DNA of 64,000 nt from the NCBI GenBank assembly GCA_937920555.1, contig CAKZTM010000004.1:1-64000 (forward strand), in the 5' to 3' direction. Each line of letters begins with the position of its first letter. The first letter of the stretch is position 1. A program made the position numbers and the translations under genes. The stretch comes from an uncultured Paracoccaceae bacterium. Lineage in GTDB: Bacteria > Pseudomonadota > Alphaproteobacteria > Rhodobacterales > Rhodobacteraceae. Of this stretch, positions 1,623 to 3,048 are shown piece by piece. The notes beneath the pieces were generated by a model. It was not told the origin of the DNA and did not search any database. It was given only the letters and a program-made list of their open reading frames with translations.

Positions 1623-2645
1623 TCACTCCGCCGCGATTTTTGCCCCCTGATGAGAGGCCCGCCGCAGGTTTTGCGCCAGATTTTGCAATTGCGGCGCTGT
1701 GAGCGCATCCGCATCCGCACGCACCTGACGGGTCAGCGCCTCGTAGCGATCCGCCTGACCTGCCGCGATCCAATCGCGCGCCATATCGCGAAGACGCCCG
1801 TGCCCCAATTGACCCATCTGATAATCGCGCGAAAAGCCGTGGCCCATGGGCACAATCGCCCCGTCTGTCTCAATGCACAACGGATGCACCTGATCGGCAA
1901 ATGTGGTGGGCTCACATTTGGTAAGACCGCCGCGCAACTCTTCGGGCAAACGCGGCTGGAAATCCACCACAATACGCAACCGTTCGCCCATGCGCTTTTG
2001 AATATCCGCCGCCCGTCGCGCCGCCATTAGCGCCGCAGGCTCGTCCACATCCAAACGCTCAAACGCGCCGCCTTCCGCCGCTCGCCCGACAAGGTCCAAA
2101 GGATGCACTTGCAGAATGGAGGCACCGGCCTGCGCCGCGAAATCCGCGGCCCATTCCAGCTCATGGGCGTTGTCGCGGCATAAGGTGAATAAAAACCCAA
2201 ACGCGATCCCGGTCGCGCGCAAAGCAGGCACTTTGGCGGCCATCACCTCAAACGCCTTTGGATTGGCCCGCATCCGGTTGTGCCGCGCAGGCTCCCCGTC
2301 CAGCGAGATGACCACAAGATCAAGAACCGGCTTGAGCGCGTCCAAGCGGCGCTTGTCCAAAAACATGCCATTTGTGACCACAGCAGTTTTCATGTCCCGC
2401 ACCTTTGCGTGGGCCAGAACCTCCGTCATATGCGGATATAAAAACGGCTCCCCGCCCGATAAAGATACAAGCGAATATCCAAGCTCATGCGCATCATCCA
2501 CAGCCAATTTTAAATCAACACTATCAAGCGCTTCCGTCTGATCTGGACCGGATGAGGAATAACAATGCAAACACTGCAAATTACACTTTCGTGTCACATG
2601 AATTTGGAGCGGGCGCGTAGCATAGCTGCGACGTGGATCAGACAT
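1623..2645 (-). CDS. Radical SAM protein, candidate peptide-modifying enzyme
   Basis: 340-residue radical SAM enzyme. The cluster-binding motif CNLQCLHC (Cys21, 25, 28) is followed by GGEP at residues 64-67, both expected for binding SAM and a 4Fe-4S cluster. The C-terminal part (about 240-295) has the layout of a SPASM-type tail (CIETDGAIVPMG, later YQMGQLGHGRLRDMARDW) but holds only Cys244 and Cys257, too few for the usual auxiliary clusters. Ribosome site GAGG lies about 11 bases before the ATG. It is preceded on the same strand, after an 81-base gap with a hairpin, by a 61-codon acidic peptide gene, which suggests a maturase-precursor pair. The reaction and substrate are inferred, not known. 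Other radical SAM roles (cofactor or heme side pathways) remain possible. Confidence 0.85.
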   Translation of the reverse strand: MSDPRRSYATRPLQIHVTRKCNLQCLHCYSSSGPDQTEALDSVDLKLAVDDAHELGYSLVSLSGGEPFLYPHMTEVLAHAKVRDMKTAVVTNGMFLDKRRLDALKPVLDLVVISLDGEPARHNRMRANPKAFEVMAAKVPALRATGIAFGFLFTLCRDNAHELEWAADFAAQAGASILQVHPLDLVGRAAEGGAFERLDVDEPAALMAARRAADIQKRMGERLRIVVDFQPRLPEELRGGLTKCEPTTFADQVHPLCIETDGAIVPMGHGFSRDYQMGQLGHGRLRDMARDWIAAGQADRYEALTRQVRADADALTAPQLQNLAQNLRRASHQGAKIAAE

Positions 2646-2701
2646 GACAAAGACCTCATGGATTAAGAACTTGGGGTGAATAAAATGCGGCGAAGGCCGA
2701 C

Positions 2702-2722
2702 CATTTGGCCGACCTCCAAATG
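2702..2722 (-). other. Intercistronic hairpin between peptide and radical SAM genes
   Basis: A perfect 7-base inverted repeat, CATTTGG and CCAAATG, with a 7-base loop, starts 4 bases after the stop of the small peptide gene and ends 57 bases before the radical SAM start. There is no T-run after it, so it looks more like a stability or attenuation element than a full terminator. Such an element would give more peptide than enzyme from one transcript. Confidence 0.5.
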
Positions 2723-2726
2723 ACGC

Positions 2727-2912
2727 TCAAAATTGCATCATGTCAGGAAGGAACACGATATCATCGACAATACCGTCGATCATCCCGCCATTGCCGAGCA
2801 CACCGCGCACATCAAGCTCTACAGGCTCAAAGCTCACGGCCGAATAATCCGGCTTGGCATTGAAAAAGTCCTCGGGGGCCTGCCCAAGATCGCGCCAATC
2901 AATAATATACAT
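2727..2912 (-). CDS. Small acidic peptide, candidate RiPP precursor
   Basis: 61-residue peptide beginning MYIIDWRDLGQAPEDFF. An in-frame ATG 14 codons upstream (2954) exists, but the start at 2912 has a strong ribosome site (AAAAGGAG, about 7 bases away), so I chose it. The peptide has 9 Asp, 3 Glu, only 1 Lys and 2 Arg, no Cys, and no signal peptide or membrane helix. The second half alternates Gly, Asp and large hydrophobics (GNGGMIDGIVDDIVFLPD) and ends MMQF. It sits directly before a radical SAM gene on the same strand with a hairpin between. This is the normal layout of a ribosomally made peptide and its maturase, but I do not recognise the peptide family. Leader and core cannot be told apart from one sequence. 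Confidence 0.65.
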   Translation of the reverse strand: MYIIDWRDLGQAPEDFFNAKPDYSAVSFEPVELDVRGVLGNGGMIDGIVDDIVFLPDMMQF

Positions 2913-3048
2913 AACAGTAACTCCTTTTGCTAAGTTGGTTGGTAAAAGGAGCAATAATCGGCCCCGCGCAAAAGCTGCGTGAGGATCATCACCGATTTGA
3001 AAGAAAGATGCGCGGCCCGGTCAAGCACCAGACCGCAACGGACCAGAT

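Follow-up and report, generated by a model that had tools for sequence, protein, structure and literature searches.

The window analyzed here, a stretch of 64,000 nucleotides from an uncultured Paracoccaceae bacterium, contains on its minus strand a gene for a 61-amino-acid peptide followed by a gene for a 340-amino-acid radical SAM enzyme (Table 1). The peptide has a net charge of -9 and no Cys, and its ATG start codon is preceded by CTTAGCAAAAGGAGTTACTGTT. A preliminary description of this DNA had reported a 61-codon gene with a very good ribosome site, a charge of about -9 and no Cys, and on its strand a 340-residue radical SAM enzyme with CxxxCxxC and GGEP motifs. Both genes were confirmed, the second by its match to the Pfam radical SAM core family (PF04055, E=5e-19). 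The plus strand carries a dihydroorotase-like gene and plsY, whereas enzyme, peptide, and gshA are on the minus strand, with RsmE-like and UbiA-like genes farther on; these flanking genes were named from reading the sequence and not from family searches. No protease, exporter, or other RiPP genes were found near the pair, and the neighboring genes thus bear out the earlier remark that no protease or exporter adjoins it.

TABLE 1 Features of the peptide/radical SAM locus in the window and small partner genes at related loci
Feature	Position	Strand	Basis
340-aa radical SAM enzyme, proposed peptide maturase	1626..2645	(-)	CNLQCLHC (CxxxCxxC), GGEP, Pfam; stop codon 1623-1625
Intergenic hairpin (12-bp stem, 4-nt loop) 3' of the peptide stop codon	2691..2718	(-)	z -1.6
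61-aa acidic Cys-free peptide, proposed precursor, MYIIDWRDLGQAPEDFFNAKPDYSAVSFEPVELDVRGVLGNGGMIDGIVDDIVFLPDMMQF	2730..2912	(-)	ORF with ribosome binding site; stop codon 2727-2729
Proposed core, residues 43-61, GMIDGIVDDIVFLPDMMQF	2730..2786	(-)	Alignment with G083 peptide, shuffle test, G-I-x(1,2)-D motif
Peptide ribosome binding site region	2915..2927	(-)	AAAGGAG ~8 nt 5' of ATG, from sequence
Two-gene cassette between convergent plsY and gshA, approximate extent	1623..3048	(-)	Comparison with G005
98-106 aa C..G.C.D partners	L011:6562-6882, L012:7899-8219, L013:8170-8466, L014:6979-7296, L030:5823-6140, L120:1147-1449		Location immediately 5' of a related radical SAM enzyme gene

The two genes appear to form an insertion at a site that can be followed in related genomes. 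In relative G005 (L129), plsY and gshA adjoin in convergent orientation, approximately 70 bp apart, and the extra material between them in the window consists of the peptide and enzyme genes alone, so that these two genes look like one inserted unit. The alternative, that the pair was lost from the relatives rather than gained by the window, is less simple than a gain, given the rarity of the pair. In G006 (L133) and G007 (L127), the plsY-gshA spacing is 0.4 to 0.5 kb, with unrelated ORFs inside it; what lies at this junction varies from genome to genome.

A search of hundreds of genomes from the window's taxonomic family yielded one true orthologue of the enzyme, which is encoded in G083 and is 54% identical over 333 columns. 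Directly 5' of it lies a gene for a 77-amino-acid peptide (L031:7660-7890), likewise Cys-free and with a net charge of -7, and none of the window's flanking genes are present in this neighborhood. The local alignment of the two peptides (AVSFEPVELDVRGVLGNGGMIDGIVDD in the window, AVKFEAIE---KILPGDDGMIDGIPSD in G083) has a Smith-Waterman score that was matched by 4 of 5,000 shuffles. A peptide with such a score in the equivalent place, next to an enzyme with that level of identity, lifts the locus above chance. Peptide and enzyme are a real, conserved two-gene pair. The short gene adjoins the putative modifying enzyme and has been kept paired with it, as in RiPP biosynthesis, at two loci, those of the window and G083, which also provide the two known members of the peptide family. 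The window peptide had no Pfam or NCBIfam match at an E value of 10 or below, and PADLOC likewise gave no family for the small proteins, in agreement with the earlier failure to recognize a precursor family.

Homology between the two peptides is confined to the C-terminal half, AVxFExxE...GMIDGI..D...MxF, in which a D and an F past GMIDGI and the terminal MxF are shared, and the N-terminal halves gave no convincing alignment. Conservation of the C-terminal part beside enzymes of this similarity would be the pattern expected of a precursor with a leader and a core. The preliminary description had located the core in the C-terminal half, and this half is indeed the conserved one; the conserved segment, however, is GMIDGI plus the terminal MxF and not LPDMMQF as such. 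The G083 peptide has two G-I-x-x-D sites (IDNGIVDPWF and MIDGIPSDFF) and the window peptide one, and the former are possibly repeated core motifs. A weak match of the peptide search in G187, among 296 genomes of the same family, was dismissed, as it sits within a long unrelated frame.

The gap between the two genes, which share one strand, is 81 nt in the window and 74 to 81 nt across the window and G083 loci. It contains a hairpin in the window, and a hairpin of equal geometry (12 bp, 4-nt loop; z -1.8) follows the peptide stop codon in G083. Each hairpin by itself is just mildly stronger than shuffles, and a long U tail 3' of the hairpin is absent at both loci; an attenuator or an mRNA stabilizer is a possible function. 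The order of short ORF, hairpin, and enzyme gene would also fit a leader peptide acting as an attenuator, through which translation or transcription of the enzyme is regulated; the enzyme's substrate would then be a small molecule. We consider this highly unlikely, since the ORF has no run of regulatory codons, the hairpins lack the long U-run, and the amino acids of GMIDGI are kept in an orthologue whose hairpin sequence differs.

The enzyme belongs to the radical SAM superfamily: the cysteines of CNLQCLHC are invariant in all aligned relatives, and its AlphaFold model (mean pLDDT of 69) matches radical SAM structures. SkfB was both the best fold match in the PDB (E=3e-14) and the closest solved structure by profile (6efn, E=3e-33). 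Apart from its match to the radical SAM core, the enzyme reached the cut-off of no family in Pfam or NCBIfam; many NCBIfam maturase models gave 50 to 93 bits, compared with cut-offs of mostly 180 to 725. Among the rows aligned, the only invariant cysteines of the family are C21, C25, and C28, which form the radical SAM cluster motif. The Pfam scan detected no SPASM domain, and no auxiliary-cluster cysteine of the SPASM/twitch type is invariant, although the alignment of the C-terminal third shows a P-h-h-I-x-x-DG-x-x-x-P pattern reminiscent of SPASM without its cysteines. No RRE/PqqD domain was matched in the enzyme in the Pfam scan, which a divergent RRE could escape, and there was no PqqD match in the window's own genome, which is 83% complete. 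Prokaryotic viperin was rejected as an assignment: the PADLOC models cover only residues 14 to 119, and viperin_w_prok scored 74 bits against a cut-off of 180.

The best NCBIfam matches of the enzyme were AhbC/NirJ (E of about 1e-26), and the class-level matches found outside the window's taxonomic family, which we rejected as family members, were NirJ-type enzymes encoded mostly beside heme-d1-type regulator genes. The enzyme might accordingly be read as a tetrapyrrole radical SAM protein of the heme-d1/AhbC-NirJ type next to an incidental peptide. This reading appears extremely improbable to us: (i) the scores of 80 to 93 bits fall short of cut-offs of 500 to 650, and the full-length equivalog score is not reached, with 88 to 93 bits against 515 to 650; (ii) the match is confined to the radical SAM core, from residue 16 to about residue 190; (iii) the window family is on a long branch apart from NirJ; and (iv) tetrapyrrole genes are absent nearby, and every family member has a small partner encoded upstream.

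Members of the enzyme family are rare, and all were found in a single taxonomic family, that of the window. It was detected in 6 of 293 order-level genomes (E≤1e-20), in 7 of 391 genomes at E≤1e-50, and in 6 of 395 family-level genomes at E≤1e-45, the last including the remote relative G004; each count takes in the window's own genome, which is the only one of its genus. A scan of genome contigs returned two remote bacterial loci only, the plasmid search no orthologue, and the search of viral contigs remote radical SAM genes only. In our literature searches, we came across no account of this peptide/enzyme pair.

Seven more genomes (G101, G363, G118, G479, G305, G306, and G985) encode enzymes 26 to 33% identical to that of the window. 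The enzyme tree separates these from the window and G083 as two groups, with supports of 93/99 and 92/96, below the strict threshold of the program. A small ORF lies directly 5' of the enzyme gene in all nine genomes, and in the seven distant ones it encodes a partner of 98 to 106 amino acids immediately upstream, with gaps of -4 to 14 nt in six genomes and of 45 nt in G985. The expectation that the pair would always co-occur thus holds for a small partner in general, but not for this peptide family, which was found at the window and G083 loci only. The distant partners are one family with an invariant C..G.C.D, and the members scanned matched no Pfam or NCBIfam family above cut-off. Of the two halves of the system, this family may be the larger and the more interesting. 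Homology of the window and G083 peptides to the partners was unsupported by pairwise shuffles or hhalign profile comparison. A G-I-x(1,2)-D pattern is common to both groups (P of about 0.003 to 0.006 in shuffles, for a pattern chosen post hoc), and the G305 partner has MIDGI at its second site.

Structure prediction for a distant partner gave two helices and two beta-hairpins in a compact alpha/beta arrangement, with a pLDDT of 82 in the best of five models and of 55 to 64 in the other four. The C..G.C site and the second, FPYGI-like site lie close to hairpin turns of the model, and the fold search returned no significant solved relative. Judging by these models, the distant, Cys-containing partner is probably a folded protein. 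In addition, at L032:6008-7434 (G004) and L022:3542-5068 (Mycolicibacterium sp. CBMA 213 plasmid pCBMA213_1), in two distant phyla, a radical SAM enzyme is preceded by a protein of 113 to 118 amino acids with a conserved FEGGDFGTV..GP.GPRP, which had no NCBIfam or Pfam family above cut-off; these loci look like a separate small-protein/radical SAM pair.

In six of the seven distant genomes, the partner gene runs into the enzyme gene or stops just short of it, as is seen for subunits produced at equal levels. A predicted compact domain encoded in this way would suit a stable subunit or substrate-binding partner of an enzyme that acts on something else, either a metabolite or another protein, and the absence of an RRE and an exporter is in line with such a role. 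For the window pair we consider this unlikely, since in its clade the genes are 74 to 81 nt apart with a hairpin between them, and the peptide is short, acidic, and conserved only in its C-terminal segment, as a precursor would be.

The pair is most likely a precursor and its maturase, of a kind absent from the libraries and papers searched. We consider it likely that the two genes are a stand-alone, RiPP-like cassette in which the enzyme acts on the conserved C-terminal segment of the peptide, at or near GMIDGI. A strong ribosome site of its own would drive translation of the small acidic peptide. The enzyme would be translated from the shared transcript, probably in smaller amounts owing to the intervening hairpin. 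The enzyme would bind the peptide, cleave SAM at its single [4Fe-4S] cluster, and abstract a hydrogen atom from the GMIDGI..D..MxF segment. Since the peptide lacks Cys, thioether chemistry is excluded, and since the enzyme also lacks conserved auxiliary-cluster cysteines, the likeliest outcome would be a single-cluster reaction, such as an epimerization, a C-C or C-O cross-link, a rearrangement, or a decarboxylation. The modified peptide would probably act inside the cell or be trimmed by a housekeeping protease; we infer an intracellular product from the lack of export and protease genes and of a PqqD match in the 83%-complete genome.

A further-reaching reading, which we offer tentatively and hold to be rather doubtful, is that of a new class of radical-SAM-modified peptides, in which enzymes without auxiliary clusters perform new chemistry on a Cys-free MIDGI-type core and members of the wider family, in the same bacteria, act on the same kind of G-I-x-x-D site within small folded proteins, with one chemistry common to two sorts of substrate. 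Many of the well-studied radical SAM peptide maturases depend on auxiliary Fe-S clusters and an RRE, and their gene clusters include genes for export and proteolysis. If the proposal is correct, a two-gene mobile cassette without such parts, whose unassigned enzyme family has two dissimilar kinds of small protein as partners, would offer a compact route to new peptide chemistry and to a role of a modified peptide inside the cell. The cassette is small enough for direct testing in E. coli.

Among known systems, SkfB/SkfA and CteB/CteA resemble the pair in that a short precursor gene lies directly ahead of the gene for a radical SAM maturase, and SkfB is the best match by profile and fold. They differ in the peptide Cys, N-terminal RRE, conserved SPASM/twitch cysteines, and exporter, all of which are lacking here. 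SkfB is a sactipeptide maturase, sactionine chemistry requires a peptide Cys, and the auxiliary cluster is used for thioether formation. Assignment to the sactipeptides or ranthipeptides was rejected, since core Cys donors are absent from both the window and the G083 peptides. Single-cluster enzymes acting on peptides have a precedent in the proteusin epimerases (PMC8326336). However, proteusin precursors have a long nitrile-hydratase-like leader, of which no conserved counterpart was found here, and the epimerases (PoyD and OspD type) carry a C-terminal RRE and a catalytic Cys, neither of which was found in our enzyme (Pfam scan; no further invariant Cys). The mycofactocin system (MftA/MftC) is similar in that a radical SAM enzyme acts on a short peptide whose core may remain in the cell as a redox compound. 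In MftA, an IDG motif lies close to an aromatic residue of the C terminus. In contrast, the window peptide has no NCBIfam match, the enzyme scored 64 bits with MftC against a cut-off of 265, and no other mycofactocin genes were seen near the pair. Spliceases act at an XYG motif, whereas the window peptide has IDG in its place, G985 has DKG, and no PlpY-like partner was seen; the likeness to spliceotides (PlpX splicease) lies in the distant partners, which have PYG, AYG, or KYG sites at predicted hairpin turns.
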